64,000 bases of DNA from Syntrophorhabdaceae bacterium (GTDB taxonomy: Bacteria > Desulfobacterota > Syntrophorhabdia > Syntrophorhabdales > Syntrophorhabdaceae). The position numbers and the translations under genes were made by a program. The notes under the pieces were generated by a model that had not been told where the DNA came from, searched no databases, and was given only the letters and a program-made list of their open reading frames with translations. The stretch lies in contig DASXUJ010000062.1 in assembly GCA_036504895.1 (NCBI GenBank), positions 124,001 through 188,000 on the forward strand. Reading direction: 5' to 3'. Below, piece by piece: positions 54,918 to 62,782 of the stretch; positions within the stretch are counted from its first letter, which is position 1, and the number at the start of each line of letters is the position of its first letter.

Positions 54918-55547
54918 TCACACAATGGAAACCCTTCGCTCAAGAGTTTCAGGATAAGGATACTCCATTCGTTTTGCCGTCTCACGCGAGACACCGTCTC
55001 CGAAATACTTGGCCACAATCAGAAGGGCGCAATCAATCCCCGCGGAAATGCCGGCGGAGGTAAAAATGTTTCCGTCCTCTACCACGTGAAGGTCTCTCTC
55101 CACCTTCGTATCAGGGAAGAGATCTCTCATCCAATCGAGAAGAGCCCAATGGGTCGTAGCCCGGCGCCCCTTGAGTAAACCTGCCCTGCCGAGAAGCATG
55201 GAACCCGTACAGACCGACGCCACGGTCCCGGCCTCGCGAGCACGCTCGGAGATCCATGTGATGAGAGGCTCATTCCCCATCTCTCTGCGAGTTCCCATCC
55301 CGCCGGGGATGAAAAGGATATCGAAGCGAGGACATGTGGCAATCCCGCAGTGAGGCACAACTTTCATGCCTCCTGTCGTAATCACCGGGTCCGCCTTCTC
55401 CGCCACAAGGAGGACCTCGAAAGGAGAAGGGTCCTCGCCACGGCTCTCTTCATGAAGACGGGTCACCGAAAAGACTTCGAAAGGTCCGCAAAAATCGAGT
55501 GCCTCTACCTCGTCAAAGATCAGAATTCCCACCTTTTTGCGTTCCAT
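54918..55547 (-). CDS. DJ-1/PfpI family protein, isonitrile-hydratase-like
   Basis: A 209-aa protein. The sequence VGILIFDEVEALDFCGPFEVFSV and the nucleophile Cys in ASVCTGSMLLGRAGLL mark the branch that includes isonitrile hydratase and the N-terminal half of GATase-type AraC regulators. GRRATTHWALLDWM follows. No helix-turn-helix is present, so it is not a regulator. The ATG at 55547 is one base after the stop of the decarboxylase-family gene, so the two are co-translated and may work on the same small molecule. Confidence 0.8.
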   Translation of the reverse strand: MERKKVGILIFDEVEALDFCGPFEVFSVTRLHEESRGEDPSPFEVLLVAEKADPVITTGGMKVVPHCGIATCPRFDILFIPGGMGTRREMGNEPLITWISERAREAGTVASVCTGSMLLGRAGLLKGRRATTHWALLDWMRDLFPDTKVERDLHVVEDGNIFTSAGISAGIDCALLIVAKYFGDGVSRETAKRMEYPYPETLERRVSIV

Positions 55548-55548
55548 C

Positions 55549-56355
55549 TCAGCCCATAAACCGGTGGAGGACCTTTCCGCCCGTGATGGTAAGGCCGATG
55601 CTGAAGGTATATCCCTCCAATGCCTGAACAGGCCCGAGGTCCGCAACTTCTTCGAAAAGGGAGGGCATGAAGTAAACCCCGGCCTCGCCCGTCCACGCAT
55701 CCTTCACCGCCACATTCGTAACCGTACTCATGGTAATATCATGAACGAGGGGTTTTTCGGGATTTTCGTAATCGGGAAAGTGGCGCATGAGGTAGAATTT
55801 TACCGGAGGTGCTTCTTCCGGGGGTATCGCCTTCTTGAGGACCAGCGTCCCTTCCACTATCCTTTCTTCGTGGGCAGCGCATATGCCCTTCATTTTTGCG
55901 CCCCCCTTCTTCCCCCCTACCATCGGCGTCAGGTCGTGGAGCTTCGTAATGTGGACACGGCCAAGCTTCTTCGGAAAACCCTGGATGAACCCACGCATAA
56001 GAGTAAAATCGTTGTCCACCCATATATAGGGCACATAGTAACCGGGTTCTCCTTCAAAATCACAGCGTATCATGACGATGCACTCCCTGTACATGGAACG
56101 CTCGGGATTGACGAAGGAGAGATCGAGACTTGCATCGCTCACAGATATCCATTCCACAAACCAGACAGCGCCTTCACCGGGATTCGGACCCATACCGAGC
56201 GGCTCGGGCAGCAGAGCACGGACCTTTTCCGGATCGGCCTTAAAATTGAGGTGCATGGCCTCCCCGCCATAATGCCATGGGGGCGGGTCCAGGAGAGAAG
56301 CTTTCCCTCCCGGTGACAGGGGGAGCATATATCCCTTCAGGGTACTTTGGCTCAT
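55549..56355 (-). CDS. Acetoacetate decarboxylase family protein
   Basis: A 268-aa protein of the ADC fold. It has the Schiff-base region GFIQGFPKKLGRV, with the adjacent lysines of true acetoacetate decarboxylase, and the family landmarks RECIVMIRCDFEGEPGYYVPYIWVDNDF. A start after GGAGGAGG is clear. Family members include decarboxylases and also aldolase- or dehydratase-like enzymes, so the reaction is not certain. It is paired with the DJ-1 gene. Confidence 0.82.
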   Translation of the reverse strand: MSQSTLKGYMLPLSPGGKASLLDPPPWHYGGEAMHLNFKADPEKVRALLPEPLGMGPNPGEGAVWFVEWISVSDASLDLSFVNPERSMYRECIVMIRCDFEGEPGYYVPYIWVDNDFTLMRGFIQGFPKKLGRVHITKLHDLTPMVGGKKGGAKMKGICAAHEERIVEGTLVLKKAIPPEEAPPVKFYLMRHFPDYENPEKPLVHDITMSTVTNVAVKDAWTGEAGVYFMPSLFEEVADLGPVQALEGYTFSIGLTITGGKVLHRFMG

Positions 56356-56472: not shown

Positions 56473-56820
56473 TCAAGGCCCTTCGGGCCGGAGCCCTTTG
56501 AGGGCCGTTTCAAGGTCGCCATATAGGGGAATATCGGAGGCAAGGTCCACCATGTCGAATACCTTTTTTATTGTTTCGCCGGCATTTGCAATGACCAAAT
56601 TCCCTTTCTTCCCTTCTATCTCACCGAGCGTCCGGTACAGCACCCTGATCCCGGCGCTGCTCATATATTCGAGGCCGTGGATATCCAGAAGGAGGAATCG
56701 GACGCCCCTCTCCAGGAGGGTCGCACACCATTGGTCGAGCTGGGGGGACGTAAGTGCGTCCAGCCGCCCCCTCACAGTGAGAATTACCACATCTCCCTTG
56801 GTATATTCCGTAATCTCCAT
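56473..56820 (-). CDS. STAS-domain anti-sigma-factor antagonist (RsbV-type)
   Basis: A 115-aa single STAS domain. Strand and helix pattern is standard (VVILTVRGRLDALTSPQL; FLLLDIHGLEYMSSAGIRVL). The switch serine is S54 or S55 in MSSAGIR. The phospho form is dephosphorylated by PP2C enzymes and the dephospho form binds an RsbW-type domain. The gene follows the PP2C gene by 108 bp on the same strand and starts after GGGAGG. With the PP2C and the permease-linked ATPase-like domain it completes a partner-switching set in one operon. Confidence 0.9.
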   Translation of the reverse strand: MEITEYTKGDVVILTVRGRLDALTSPQLDQWCATLLERGVRFLLLDIHGLEYMSSAGIRVLYRTLGEIEGKKGNLVIANAGETIKKVFDMVDLASDIPLYGDLETALKGLRPEGP

Positions 56821-56928
56821 GTCCCTCCCTTTACTGCCGACTCCGTCAGGCCATTGCCCTTAACACATGTGCCTCTCCACATTATCTCAGTTTGTCTCCC
56901 CTTCGTCCACGGTTTTTTATAACGCGAA

Positions 56929-57891
56929 TTATGTGGCAGGACCGAGAAACCTGACGGAAAGGATGGTGATATCGTCCGATTGGACGGCGCCCGCGGCATG
57001 ACGTCTGAGCGCAGCAAGTACGTGCATAATGTGCTCCCGGGGAGATGTCGCTCCGCCCCCTTCCAGGGCAAATGCCAGGCCCTCCTCTCCGAAAAGAGCC
57101 CCCTCGGGATCCATGGCTTCCGTCACGCCGTCCGTATAAGCGAAACATAACCCACCCCGGGGCAGAACAAGAAATTCGTCGCAAAAGGAGGCGGCGGGCC
57201 TTACGCCGAGCGGCCTCCCGGGCCTCACGTCCACCCTGGTAGCTGTTCCCGCGGCATTTATCAAATAGGGCGGGTTATGACCTGCGTTGGAGTAGCGGAG
57301 CTCTCCGGTCTCCATATCAAGGACAGCGAGGAAGACAGTGATAAACATGACCTGATCGTTTTCCCGGCATAGCTCCACATTCGCTTTCGAGAGGATTTCC
57401 GAAGGAGATTGAACGCCCTGTCCCCCTGCGGCAAGCAATCTTATTGCGGTTTTTCCACGGGCCATACATAATGCGGCGGGGACCCCCTTCCCTGAGACGT
57501 CACCTATGACTATCCAGAGGTGCCGTGAACCGGTAAAGAAGAAATCATAGAAATCTCCCCCCACCTCTTTTGCCGGCTCAAGATGGGCGGCCAACTCGAA
57601 GTCGTGACGCGCGAGCTCAGGAGGATGAGGGACCATACTCATTTGAATGTCATGGGCGATTTTAAGCTCACTTTCGATCTTCTCTTTCGCAGCCGTGGCC
57701 TCCTTAAGCTTCTCTATATGTGAAGTGAGCGACCCTGTCATGAAGGCGAGCGCTTTCGCGAGCCGTGAAACCTCATCCTTTGATTTCATGGCAATCGCCT
57801 TGATCCTGGCGCCCGCCTCATGGATGTCGGTGAAATCCGTATAAGAGAGTTGTCGCGCATAGAAGGCGAGGAGATTGAGACTTCCCGTCAT
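56929..57891 (-). pseudogene. HAMP-PP2C part of a frameshifted Cache-HAMP-PP2C phosphatase (3' part)
   Basis: A 320-aa frame from the first ATG, open back to a TGA at 57940-57942. It begins within the second membrane helix (upstream residues read LIASCITTLFLVKR), then HAMP (about 28-60), a coiled-coil linker (about 55-85) and a complete RsbU/SpoIIE PP2C domain: VGGDFYDFF, GDVSGKGVPAAL, YTDGVTEA and QSDDITILSV carry the metal-binding Asp residues. It would dephosphorylate the STAS protein encoded next. Alone it lacks a sensor and a full membrane anchor. It could still be made as a separate protein if a non-ATG start is used. It is in a different frame from the Cache part at 57818-58975. Confidence 0.75.
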
Positions 57892-58975
57892 TCTCTTTAC
57901 CAGGAAAAGGGTCGTAATACAGCTTGCAATAAGGACCGGTCACGGTGAAAACTATCTGCCATCCCACCAAGACCCTGGCGGGGCGGTCAATCTCGTCCCT
58001 GTACACGGAGGCGGCCACATACCAGTCAAGGGGAGGGAAATAATCGACATAGGCTTCCTTGAGGAAACGGAAATCGCCCTCATGCCCCGAGGGTTTGTCC
58101 CAAAGGTATATCAAAGGCAATCCCGGGTTTTTTGAAGCCTTTATAAGCTCATCATAATGGAGGATCACCCGGGCAGGGTCATTTACCTGTGCCGCCTCCT
58201 TGCCTTTGAGGGCAGGGTGGAGGAGCATCTTCTTTTGACCGTTAAAGAGGAAGAAATAGCCGGTCTGCCCGATACGCATTCTGCCCATGGTCTCTTCGAG
58301 GCCTTTCACGACCCTTTCGATCTTCATGTTCATATCACGTGTAATGTCATCGATGTACACACCGGTGCCCACCACCCAATTCCATTTTTTATAAAGCTCG
58401 ACATAACTCAGCTTCTCCGCCGGCTCTTTTTCTCCCAACCGTATATACCAGAATGAGTCAAATCCGCTCCCTTTGGTGAGAGCGGTCCGGATGATGTCCC
58501 GTACCGCGTACTTTCCCTTCACGTCCCGAAACAGGGAAAGGTCCTTTCCGTAGAGTGCCGGATCAGGGTGAGAGATATTCATCCCCTTCAGATCATAGAC
58601 AAAAAAATAGTCGTTGTTTCCGAATTTAAAATTTCGAAGAGATTCGGCGGCTAATCTCTTCGCCTCCCCCTCCGTGAGCGATCCCGCCCGGTAAAGGGCA
58701 TAATATCCATCGATATGCGTCAGGGCCAGGGCCGTGAGGTTCTTAAGCTGCTCTTTGTACCTGAGAAGGGCATACTCTTTATGATAGACGATGCTCCGAT
58801 GCTCGTTCTCGATGTCCAGCTTCACGAGGCGGAGCTGGTCGCGCGCTGCCTGTCTCGTCGTCCTGCTCATCGTCTCCGTCACTTCCACTACGGTAAAAGC
58901 CATAATCGCGGCGGAAGACACGGTAAGGATAGTGATGATGAGGAGGAGTAGTTTTGAACGGAAGGAAGTAAGCAT
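57818..58975 (-). pseudogene. Double-Cache sensor part of a frameshifted Cache-HAMP-PP2C phosphatase (5' part)
   Basis: About 385 aa from the ATG at 58975, which has GAAGG before it; a TTG at 58999 inside the permease gene is the alternative. One membrane helix (about 7-27) is followed by a periplasmic sensor with two Cache-like units: NNDYFFVYDLKGMNISHPDP and TGYFFLFNGQKKMLLHP, each followed by a VVGTGVYID or WYVAASVY strand. The second membrane helix begins as VLVGWQIVFTV and then breaks off into non-homologous sequence. Skipping one base near 57936-57939 restores T-V-L-I-A-S-C, joining it to the PP2C frame. The intact protein would be about 682 aa. Confidence 0.78.
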
Positions 58976-58988
58976 CGACGCCTTCAGA

Positions 58989-60704
58989 TTAATGTTCAAA
59001 ATGGAGGAAGAGGAGGTTCATGTCGTCCCTCTTTTCCTGGCGCACCGCATCCGTGTATTGGCGGATCATGTAACCTGACAGCTTCGTGGAAGCCGCAGCT
59101 TCCCGTTTCAACTCCTCCTTTGAAGGCCGGGATAAGGCAAGCTCCAGGGGTTCACCACGATAGGAAATCGTCATATCGAGCTTGAATTCATCAAACTCCG
59201 CCTTCACCTTCACCTTCCCTTCCTTCACCTCGACAAGGGAGGCTCCTTCAAGAAACTCGTTCAAGGCGGAGGCAGCGCTGTGAATCACTTCCGGACGGGC
59301 GCCCCAGCTTCTCCCCTGATGCTCCATAAATTCGAATATTTTCTCCGAGGAATCAGTTGCCACATTCAGCTCCAGTACCGCCTGTCGTGAAATGCCGATC
59401 CTCAGAAGCAGGTTGAGGAGAATTGCGGCCATCGTGGCGAGAGAGAGGGAGGAGGCGAATACGGGCTTTACCCATGGATGGACGTTTCGATAAAGCTCCG
59501 GCGCCATATCGGCGCTTAAGCCGAAGATGATCGAGGCGCCGACCACGAAGGTCTTGCGGGCATCCATCATTCTTGACATCATGATTTGAAATCCCGCCAC
59601 GATCATGAAACTGACGGCAAAAATGAGCGTTGCTCCGATTACGGGTTTGGGCATTATGAGGAATAGCTCCGCCAGTTTCGGGAAGAAGGCGAGGGATATG
59701 AAAATAGCGCCCACCGCAAAGGCCACCACGCGGCTCGTCGCTCCGGTTGCCACCGAAAGGCCCACATTGGACGACGAAGTCGATTGTCCGTAGCCTCCTA
59801 TAATTCCCGGTATCACCCCGCCCAGCCCGTCAGCAAGGATACCTCGTGAAACCGCGTTCATATCCGGTCTCCTCCAGTCACTGTCGTTGATCTTCTGGCA
59901 CGTCACCAGGTCCCCCACTGTTTTGAAGGTCGAACAAAGGGTGGCCACCGTGAAAGGTATTACAAGAGAAAAATCAAAGGCCCAGCTTATTTTATCCGGC
60001 CGGGGAAGGGCGAAGACAGGGGCGGAGCGTATCTTTTCCAGGTCATCCGCGGTAATAATGCCCAGAAGCGCGGAGATCCCGTACCCGACGACCATTCCTA
60101 CAAGGGTACAGTAAAGCTTTAACTTACCCCTGCTCCACACGCTCAACGCAATGATTGCAAAAAAAGTGACGAGGCCGGTACTGATCTCTGCCGGGCGAAG
60201 AGAAAGGTCTCCCGCCTCATAGCCGAAAAAATTCTTCACCGAGATAGGGATCACCACTATCCCCACCATTGCAACGACCACGCCCGTGACTTCTGAGGGG
60301 AAGAGCACCCTCAGCCGGTGTATGACCCGCGAAAACAGGCACTCGATGATGCCGGCCACGGCCGTCATACCGAAAAGAAGGGGCAATCCTCCCGTGGCTG
60401 CGGCAATCTTTGACGCGTCAAAATAGGAAGGTCCGCACACGGAAGGACAAAGATAGCCCGATCCCACGGGTCCCTTCGTAAAGGCCTGAAGGACCGTTGC
60501 CGCTCCCCCCGCAATCATGGAAAGACTAATGAAGCCCCTCGCCCAATCAGGGCTTATCGAGCTTCCCAGTTGTCGCACTATAAGCACGGGAAAAATAAGG
60601 GCGATAAACAGGACGAACACATGCTGCAAACCCAATATAAGGGTCGTAAAAACTGGCGGCCTGTCATCCACGCCATAGATCAGGTTAGTCGGTTTTTTGG
60701 CCAT
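58989..60704 (-). CDS. NCS2 nucleobase permease fused to an RsbW-like ATPase domain
   Basis: A 571-aa protein. Residues 1-430 form a uracil/xanthine-type NCS2 transporter with about 14 helices (TTLILGLQHVFVLF, the substrate region GYGQSTSSSNVG, TVGDLVTC). Residues about 440-571 form a soluble domain that follows the RsbW/HATPase_c_2 pattern: strand LELNVATDSSE, helix with ALNEFLEGASL, strands GKVKVKAEFDEF and KLDMTISYRGEP, then KLSGYMIRQYTDAV and NLLFLHFEH. The N-box Asn appears as Gly and the DxGxGF acid is absent, so ATP binding is doubtful. The gene ends inside the start region of the Cache-PP2C gene. A STAS partner follows downstream. Confidence 0.82.
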   Translation of the reverse strand: MAKKPTNLIYGVDDRPPVFTTLILGLQHVFVLFIALIFPVLIVRQLGSSISPDWARGFISLSMIAGGAATVLQAFTKGPVGSGYLCPSVCGPSYFDASKIAAATGGLPLLFGMTAVAGIIECLFSRVIHRLRVLFPSEVTGVVVAMVGIVVIPISVKNFFGYEAGDLSLRPAEISTGLVTFFAIIALSVWSRGKLKLYCTLVGMVVGYGISALLGIITADDLEKIRSAPVFALPRPDKISWAFDFSLVIPFTVATLCSTFKTVGDLVTCQKINDSDWRRPDMNAVSRGILADGLGGVIPGIIGGYGQSTSSSNVGLSVATGATSRVVAFAVGAIFISLAFFPKLAELFLIMPKPVIGATLIFAVSFMIVAGFQIMMSRMMDARKTFVVGASIIFGLSADMAPELYRNVHPWVKPVFASSLSLATMAAILLNLLLRIGISRQAVLELNVATDSSEKIFEFMEHQGRSWGARPEVIHSAASALNEFLEGASLVEVKEGKVKVKAEFDEFKLDMTISYRGEPLELALSRPSKEELKREAAASTKLSGYMIRQYTDAVRQEKRDDMNLLFLHFEH

Positions 60705-60902: not shown

Positions 60903-61754
60903 ATGGATATTAAGGTCGGTATCAGCGAAGCAATCGGAATGAGGGACAACATGGAAGACCACCACGCGGTCCATGGAGGGCCCGATCTTCCTCTTTTCAG
61001 TGCCGAAGTCTATGACGGTCATCTCGGCAGGGAGGCCGCCCGCCTCGCTTCGGAGATGCTTACCCCCCATTTTCTGAACCGATGGTACGAGGAACAGGAG
61101 AAGCCTGCCTTCGATCGCCTCAACGAAATTCTTTTACTGCGAGAGGCATATAACGCCGTGGATGAGTACATCATCCATGAGGGTATCCAGGGGGGGACCG
61201 CCGCAGCCACCCTTCTTCTCATGGGAGAGAGGTTCTTAGCCGCCAACGCCGGAGATTCAAGGGTAATAATAGGCACCGGATCAGGCGTTGAGACTCTGAC
61301 CCTCGATCACAAGCCGGACTTGCCCGAAGAAAGGGAAAGGATAGAATCACTCGGCGGGGTAATCACCCATCTCGGGACACCGCGTGTAATGGGTTTTCTC
61401 GCGATGACCCGGGCCCTTGGGGATAGGGATCTCAAGCCTTTCGTCACCTCCGAGCCGCGCATCGTCTCCGGCCTCCTGGGCAGAGAGAACGATTATGCCG
61501 TTCTGGCATGCGACGGCGTGTGGGATGTTCTTACTCCGGAGATAGTGATTGCAGTCATCCGGGAGGCCCGGGAAGCCCAGAAGGGAGCCGATGCCATAAA
61601 GGACAGGGCGATACGGGAGGGGAGCATGGATAATGTTACGGTCCTGGTCCTTGACCTCAAGGCCCACACGGCCCGAATGACCAGAGAACGGATGGAGGTC
61701 CGGACGGTCCTGGACATGGCACTCCCTCACGACCCCGAAGATGGACTGATGTGA
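60903..61754 (+). CDS. Eukaryotic-type PP2C (PPM) Ser/Thr phosphatase
   Basis: A 283-aa phosphatase of the PPM branch, not the SpoIIE branch. All metal and catalytic motifs are present: RDNMEDHH, VYDGHLGREAA, GGTAAATLLL, ANAGDSRVII, DHKPDLPEERERI, TRALGD, LACDGVWDVL and DNVTVLVL. It is closer to eukaryotic PP2C in motif spelling (MEDH, VYDGH) than to PrpC or Stp1. No Hanks-type kinase gene is seen in the window. It is divergent from the permease operon. A promoter with an inverted repeat lies 40-90 bp upstream. Confidence 0.9.
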   Translation: MDIKVGISEAIGMRDNMEDHHAVHGGPDLPLFSAEVYDGHLGREAARLASEMLTPHFLNRWYEEQEKPAFDRLNEILLLREAYNAVDEYIIHEGIQGGTAAATLLLMGERFLAANAGDSRVIIGTGSGVETLTLDHKPDLPEERERIESLGGVITHLGTPRVMGFLAMTRALGDRDLKPFVTSEPRIVSGLLGRENDYAVLACDGVWDVLTPEIVIAVIREAREAQKGADAIKDRAIREGSMDNVTVLVLDLKAHTARMTRERMEVRTVLDMALPHDPEDGLM

Positions 61755-61900
61755 GATAAACTGCCCTTACAGGGCCGACTATGGTATTATATCGCATGTT
61801 ATCCATGATTTACGTATACTTTTCAAAAAATGTTCATTTTACACCGACATCTCTTCTTTTAAAGGCAAAGGGCGTCTTTCCTTTACGACAGAGGAAGACG

Positions 61901-62782
61901 ATGGGGCCGAATAGGGGTATCTCTTTTTGCGGAAGCTTCCTGTGGCTCCTTTCATGCCTTTCCCTCATTACCTTCGCCTCTTCACCCGCTCATGGTTCGT
62001 CCCTCTGGGGCGCCGTCGGAAATTCCGTAGAGGGCGGCGGAGCGCTGGTGGGAAAAAACTATGACGGGCAACCGGTGCATTGCGAATTTCGCATGGTAAT
62101 TCCCAGGGAGGGCATTCCCTACCTGGGCCTTTTTCCGCTCCATACCAAGAAAGGCCAGGGGCCGGTAGCGGGAATAAACGAAAAGGGTCTTGCCGTGGTA
62201 AGCGCTGCCCCCGAGACCATCTCGGACTCCAGGATGAACCCTTCGGCAGAACGGATTACGGAAGCATTACTTACCGGATACGAAACGGTCGATGCCCTTC
62301 TGTCTGCGCCCCTCGCGTTCAAGAAAGGCTTTCCCATCTTTTATCTCATCGCGGATCGGCACAAAATTGCGCTGGCCGAAATTCCTCCCCAGGGGGACGC
62401 CTTGATAAGGACTGCAGAAAACGGAACTCTCTTCCATACCAATCATTATATTCAACAAAAATTCATCGATTTTAATAAAAAAATGAGGAAGAACAGCGAA
62501 CTAAGGCTTGAGCGGCTCGCAGGCGCGTTCACCGGCCTTGCCGGCCCCCTGACCATGGACACTTTCATAGGCATAAGTAAAGATAGAGGCACCGGTACGG
62601 AAGATGCCATACTGAGGTTCGGCGGACCCCCAGGCTCCGAGCGGACCCTCGCCTCCTGGATCTTATCGCTGCCGAAAGCAGCCCCTCCAGAACTGCATGT
62701 CGGCTTCTTCGGCGCCGACGAGACGGAAAGGGAATACGACCTGAGGCTCGACCGCTCCTTCTGGAGCGAGGCGGTGGAATAA
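61901..62782 (+). CDS. Exported linear-amide C-N hydrolase (choloylglycine/C45 Ntn family), Ser in place of Cys
   Basis: A 293-aa protein from the ATG after AGAGGAAG. A signal peptide ends at AHG (residues 30-32). The mature start is SSLWGAVGNSVEGGGALVGKNYDG, the pattern of Ntn hydrolases such as penicillin acylase-like and acyl-CoA:6-APA acyltransferase-like proteins, whose first mature residue is normally Cys (C-T/S-L-W). Here that position is Ser33. Further family elements are GINEKGLAVVSAA, ERITEALLTGYETVDALL, IADRHKIALAEI and FHTNHYIQ. The substrate is unknown. Ser could still act as nucleophile after signal cleavage, or the enzyme may be inactive. Confidence 0.75.
   Translation: MGPNRGISFCGSFLWLLSCLSLITFASSPAHGSSLWGAVGNSVEGGGALVGKNYDGQPVHCEFRMVIPREGIPYLGLFPLHTKKGQGPVAGINEKGLAVVSAAPETISDSRMNPSAERITEALLTGYETVDALLSAPLAFKKGFPIFYLIADRHKIALAEIPPQGDALIRTAENGTLFHTNHYIQQKFIDFNKKMRKNSELRLERLAGAFTGLAGPLTMDTFIGISKDRGTGTEDAILRFGGPPGSERTLASWILSLPKAAPPELHVGFFGADETEREYDLRLDRSFWSEAVE

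Follow-up and report, generated by a model that had tools for sequence, protein, structure and literature searches.

Partner switching is known mainly for the control of sigma factors and a few enzymes. Here we describe an operon in which the parts of such a switch stand beside, and partly within, a membrane transporter. It lies in a 64,000-nucleotide stretch of the genome of a Syntrophorhabdaceae bacterium (assembly GCA_036504895.1, contig DASXUJ010000062.1, positions 124,001 to 188,000), which we call the window. All its genes are on the minus strand: a permease of the NCS2 fold with an additional C-terminal domain, a membrane-anchored double-Cache sensor, a PP2C/SpoIIE phosphatase of the RsbU type and, at 2.2 kilobases (kb), a free STAS protein (Table 1). 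An earlier reading made from the letters alone (the sequence-only reading) had placed three tandem leftward loci here, and the open reading frames (ORFs) and domain matches bear this out at the coordinates first given. The end of the permease ORF and the start of the sensor ORF overlap over 11 nucleotides. Since the whole genome holds just two NCS2 permeases and as many free STAS genes, a chance meeting of the two in one operon is unlikely.

Table 1 Features of the operon, with positions in the window (TM, transmembrane helix)
Feature	Position	Strand	Basis
NCS2-fold permease with C-terminal pseudo-RsbW tail, 571 residues	58989..60704	-	ORF; PF00860 E 1.6e-55
Xan_ur_permease domain, residues 21-402	59499..60644	-	PF00860
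Lys261, position of UraA Glu241 (TM8)	59922..59924	-	profile alignment; PMC5539350
Ser312, position of UraA Glu290 (TM10)	59769..59771	-	profile alignment; PMC5539350
Pseudo-RsbW/SpoIIAB tail, residues 434-571 (~138)	58989..59405	-	AlphaFold2, Foldseek, hhalign
Membrane-anchored double-Cache sensor ORF, 393 residues, TTG start	57818..58999	-	dCache_2 E 4e-65
dCache_2 domain of sensor ORF	57986-58882	-	Pfam
Reading-frame change zone, sensor to phosphatase	57900..57940	-	frame comparison; single-frame relatives
PP2C/SpoIIE (RsbU-type) phosphatase ORF, 320 residues	56929..57891	-	PF07228 E 5.8e-49
SpoIIE domain of phosphatase ORF	56947-57525	-	PF07228
Free STAS (RsbV/SpoIIAA-type) protein, 115 residues	56473..56820	-	STAS E 1e-17; TIGR00377 above cut-off

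The tail of the permease is the most unusual of these parts. Pfam finds no match in it, HATPase included; among the tails of 23 relatives taken alone, weak HATPase_c_2 matches appear in six (best 0.0017), and a PDB sequence search with the tail profile returned coiled-coil-like chance matches only. Because these searches were uninformative, structure and profile-profile comparisons were needed. An AlphaFold2 model of the tail, built on a nine-sequence alignment, reaches a predicted local distance difference test score (pLDDT) of 88.9 and shows an RsbW-like order of helices and strands; the full-length permease model was poor (pLDDT 60) and was not used. The top PDB matches of the tail model in Foldseek are SpoIIAB, UsfX and RsbW (E 6.5e-7, probability 1.00), and the matched entries are mostly complexes with STAS or sigma partners: SpoIIAB-SpoIIAA, RsbW-RsbV and UsfX-RsfB. 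Aligned by hhalign with seven genuine RsbW-type sequences, the tail profile matches over 130 columns at E 1.8e-9. A tail-only profile run over 296 genomes of the phylum also recovered a free protein of 138 residues (HATPase_c_2 4e-27), whose gene overlaps a STAS gene. An iterated RsbW profile absorbed tail sequences; its E-values for the tail were dropped, and a clean RsbW profile was used for the neighbourhood scans described below. As the structure match, the profile comparison and the recovery of a free RsbW agree, we regard the tail as RsbW-related and as a bearer of the RsbW/SpoIIAB (Bergerat-type) fold. The structure comparison had been chosen beforehand as the test on which the idea could fall, and it returned this fold.

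What the tail does not carry is the ATP site. In the window E483 is kept, G487 stands at the position of the Mg-binding Asn, Y515 at that of the adenine-contacting Asp, and the GLG lid reads K541-L-S543. The family shows the same picture: in a profile alignment of 50 tails the catalytic Glu position is kept in 41, the Mg2+-ligand Asn of the N-box in none, Tyr replaces the adenine Asp in 45, and little is left of the Gly-rich lid, whose second glycine is kept in two. The N-box Asn, adenine Asp and Gly-rich lid of active RsbW/SpoIIAB kinases are thus absent from the window tail and from its family, and of the RsbW/HATPase domain in the sequence-only reading the fold stands while the enzyme does not. 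Judged by these residues the tail appears to be a pseudokinase, and activity as a kinase is very improbable. The tails conserve new residues instead (FDE-x-x-LD, Y-x-G and W-G-A-R), which argues that they are under selection for something besides ATP use. STAS docking would be the obvious candidate, since RsbW uses that surface in the matched complexes.

The remaining parts of the switch look more conventional. The phosphatase keeps the GGD, GDVSGKG, DG and SDD motifs of RsbU-type PP2C enzymes, and the free STAS protein, which passes the cut-off of the anti-sigma-antagonist model TIGR00377, has its switch serine, as first noted, within YMSSAG (Ser54/55). Sensor and phosphatase overlap in two different reading frames, and the change from one to the other comes immediately past 57,940, within the expected second transmembrane helix; the sensor phosphatase of the sequence-only reading is therefore present as Cache and SpoIIE domains, not as one ORF. 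In the relative at locus L025, Cache, HAMP and SpoIIE share a single frame of 582 residues, and relatives of the phosphatase within the class occupy open frames of ~620-670 residues. The frame change may be a lesion, an assembly error or recoding.

Permeases with such a tail are not confined to this genome. In a tree built on columns that include the tail, they form one deep, fully supported clade apart from ordinary NCS2 proteins, on a branch of 1.5 changes per site, which spans Desulfobacterota and Pseudomonadota. One long-branched untailed member (L119) falls inside it, and no tail remnant was found behind this relative (L119/L170). Tailed permeases occur in 16 of the 46 genomes of the class, and in 6 of 397 genomes from the phylum of a gammaproteobacterial relative; tail-profile matches appear in 13 of the 296 genomes of the window's phylum, one of which is a free RsbW (G279) and another a tail fragment near a contig end (G004). 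Three named plasmids, of Azospirillum thermophilum, Candidatus Thiodictyon syntrophicum and Pseudoroseomonas cervicalis, also carry them, with 'solute carrier family 23 protein' as their sole annotation. Some loci hold several copies. On plasmid NZ_CP020371.1 (L076, 3722-13728) two divergent tailed permeases are accompanied by a third fragment, consisting of the last helix plus tail and annotated hypothetical, which is followed 33 bases on by STAS and then by an ABC substrate-binding protein and SpoIIE. At L091 (5892-9524, genome G594) two tailed permeases from separate subclades stand tail to tail.

Do the partners of RsbW accompany the tail elsewhere? STAS, SpoIIE or active RsbW genes were sought within 1.5 kb of 50 tailed permeases and adjoin eight of them (STAS in six, SpoIIE in six, active RsbW in three). 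At about 46 untailed NCS2 control loci they adjoin no permease (Fisher p 0.006, which ignores relatedness); the number of controls is approximate, as a few are partial or SulP-like. The window is one of the eight, and the arrangement of the partners varies. The full set is found at L025, with Cache-SpoIIE and permease followed by RsbW and STAS on the other strand. The order is STAS, permease, SpoIIE at L030 and L031; permease, SpoIIE at L032, where the contig ends upstream; SpoIIE with a five-transmembrane-helix sensor, STAS, permease at L065; permease, STAS, RsbW at L092; and RsbW (opposite strand), permease, STAS at L096. The recurrence of the same partners in different gene orders argues for a functional link. 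Traced on the tree, the partner-gene label changes six times, at least four of them forced by well-supported branches, so the association has been gained or lost repeatedly. The other test on which the idea could fall, a gene neighbourhood not conserved in relatives, did not refute it either: the neighbourhood recurs in distant lineages, without being universal.

As to the permease domain, a PF00860 score of 188.9 bits (gathering 27) places it in the NCS2/SLC23 fold family. Against TIGR03173 it reaches 247 bits, below the 414-bit cut-off, and the xanthine-permease and NCS2 models all stay under their cut-offs. UraA binds uracil via Glu241 in TM8 and Glu290 in TM10, both of which are essential (PMC5539350). 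In the window permease these are replaced by Lys261 and Ser312. The TM8 Glu is found in none of the 50 tailed permeases. At that position Lys or Arg predominates, with Asp, Asn, Tyr or His in the rest, and in TM10 nearly all have Ser, Ala or Gly, the Glu or Gln being gone; the residue count takes in one untailed reference (L105) on the tailed side. Untailed NCS2 controls mostly have Glu or Asp in TM8 and Glu or Gln in TM10. Because the residues that mark a functional nucleobase symporter are missing, nucleobase transport is not to be assumed, and the purine or pyrimidine uptake of the sequence-only reading is, from the aligned pocket, unsupported. The case also serves as a warning that the annotation 'solute carrier family 23' does not always mean a nucleobase carrier.

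Tailed permeases nevertheless conserve the permease fold together with many core residues specific to the clade. What might they carry? Small carboxylates are a weak lead, suggested by the positive charge of the pocket and by a few neighbourhoods; the metabolic neighbours show no single theme. The Azospirillum plasmid copy stands after genes for 3-oxoacid CoA-transferase and 3-hydroxybutyrate dehydrogenase, and the window Cache domain resembles the MctS and CtpM sensors, at scores far under their cut-offs. The sole untailed permease inside the tailed clade (L170, 4724-7058 and 7644-9623), which has Lys in TM8, has a lipoprotein-like double-Cache gene 13 bases ahead of it and acetyl-CoA synthetase behind it; the lipoprotein-like protein may be a binding protein for the permease substrate.

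Tentatively, and with a confidence just short of even, we favour a partner-switching module whose target is the transporter, with dephosphorylated STAS docking on the pseudokinase tail and gating the permease. An extracellular small molecule, perhaps a small carboxylate, would bind the Cache domains and change the activity of the phosphatase, which would strip the phosphate from the STAS serine. Dephosphorylated STAS would then dock on the tail as RsbV does on RsbW, and alter the conformation or oligomeric state of the permease so that transport is opened or closed. The opposing kinase would be another RsbW, an active one, whose gene some relatives (L025, L092 and L096) have next to the permease; in the window genome, where an active-looking free RsbW is encoded elsewhere, it is probably the chromosomal RsbW. 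For want of an active cognate kinase in the operon the window system is not a complete RsbW-type switch; it resembles a partner switch in its working. In a more specific form, which we hold a little more guardedly, the permease would be an NCS2-derived carrier or transceptor for a non-nucleobase, possibly small-carboxylate, substrate, belonging to a clade in at least two phyla and gated directly by a phospho-switch STAS protein on a fused pseudokinase, with no transcription step.

Several points weigh against a STAS-gated transporter. No kinase gene adjoins the window operon, and the sensor and phosphatase are split there by the frame change. Partner genes are missing within 1.5 kb of 42 of the 50 tailed permeases, several of which lie on short contigs, so linkage in cis is not obligatory; co-occurrence in trans is uninformative, as genomes of the class have STAS genes with or without a tailed permease. 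Docking and gating are steps that we infer, and the transport activity of the permease is itself presumed.

The main rival reverses the flow of information. The NCS2-like domain would be mainly a receptor, a transceptor or membrane sink, whose occupancy tunes the hold of the tail on STAS and, through it, another RsbW and a sigma factor or other target. The loss of the canonical substrate and proton-coupling Glu in all tailed members fits this view, as do the free active RsbW genes beside STAS and permease in the three loci just named and the existence of transporter-signalling fusions that act as sensors, CbrA (PMC13022988) and CrbS (PMC5715377). The conserved fold and core residues and the carboxylate-use genes beside some relatives are consistent with transport too, however, and no sigma factor gene was recognised next to the window operon; we consider a receptor role rather unlikely.

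RsbW/SpoIIAB and NCS2 proteins both dimerise. The tail could accordingly have been inherited as a domain for dimerisation or stability, a role that STAS may have in SulP transporters, with the partner genes as neighbours not directly connected to it. Its retention at many loci without partner genes speaks for such a structural role, but it is beside tailed permeases, and not beside untailed ones, that the partners recur across several lineages and with several gene orders, which makes it quite improbable. That the tail is a divergent RsbW still able to phosphorylate STAS at the membrane is highly improbable: the kept catalytic Glu position is outweighed by the lost Asn, Asp and lid, and the window tail has no HATPase match in Pfam.

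The individual parts of this system are known; it is the arrangement that appears to be new. With RsbU/RsbV/RsbW and SpoIIE/SpoIIAA/SpoIIAB it has three parts in common, namely a PP2C phosphatase, a switch-serine STAS protein and an RsbW-fold domain, but here the last is part of a transporter protein and its ATP site is gone, and the operon stands without a recognisable sigma factor gene. In SiaABCD of Pseudomonas aeruginosa a phosphatase with its switch protein governs, through direct binding, a target that is not a sigma factor (PMC8457831), and against SiaA the window phosphatase scores E 2e-16, well short of the cut-off. There the target is a diguanylate cyclase and the SiaB kinase is active, whereas the window operon probably acts on a permease whose tail is a pseudokinase. 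SulP/SLC26 transporters have a fold in common with NCS2/SLC23 (PMC5539350) and likewise carry a cytoplasmic partner-switching domain in cis; theirs is the STAS half, while here the permease has the RsbW half and STAS is free. As a separate observation, at L102 (1063-6192) a tailed NCS2 permease has, ~1.6 kb away, a sulfate permease of the SulP type that bears a STAS domain itself.

The SLC5/STAC histidine kinases CbrA and CrbS also join a transporter to a GHKL-type signalling domain (PMC13022988, PMC5715377), but with another transporter fold, an active histidine kinase and a response regulator, and with neither STAS nor PP2C. UraA, UapA and PbuX are of the same fold and family as the window permease, which is without their TM8 Glu and TM10 Glu/Gln and has the pseudokinase tail added. 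In the open-access literature, with subscription papers outside the search, we found no description of this arrangement, in line with the earlier statement that no such system was known; a review of STAS-only proteins does not contain it either, its transporter passages being concerned with SulP/SLC26.

In sum of its distribution, the central domain of a partner switch, its ATP site lost, sits on a membrane transporter in at least two phyla and beside its usual partners in several lineages. This suggests that a switch familiar from gene regulation works straight on a transporter or by way of one. Should STAS binding turn out to gate the carrier, or to report whether it is occupied, a large signalling family would gain control of transporters at the post-translational level, or a receptor built on a transporter, and the finding would bear on the role of the cytoplasmic STAS domain in SulP/SLC26, seemingly the mirror-image arrangement.

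The surroundings of the operon offer few further clues. Promoter- and terminator-like sites are near shuffled expectation, and no Rfam family was found. Downstream of STAS on the same strand, 54918-56355 (-) encodes an acetoacetate-decarboxylase-fold protein (MppR-like) and a DJ-1/PfpI-family protein, which may or may not be part of the operon transcript. On the other side a second, different PP2C phosphatase (PF00481, E 2e-47; 60903-61754, +) diverges 198 bases from the permease start; it may have a promoter region in common with the permease, and could itself act upon that switch. It is followed at 61781-62782 (+) by a gene for a C45/AAT-family autoproteolytic acyltransferase-like protein whose N-terminus resembles a signal. 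Elsewhere, at L062 (7096-10337), a gene for a dynamin-like GTPase comes after a free RsbW and STAS pair, an unusual neighbour for a partner switch.

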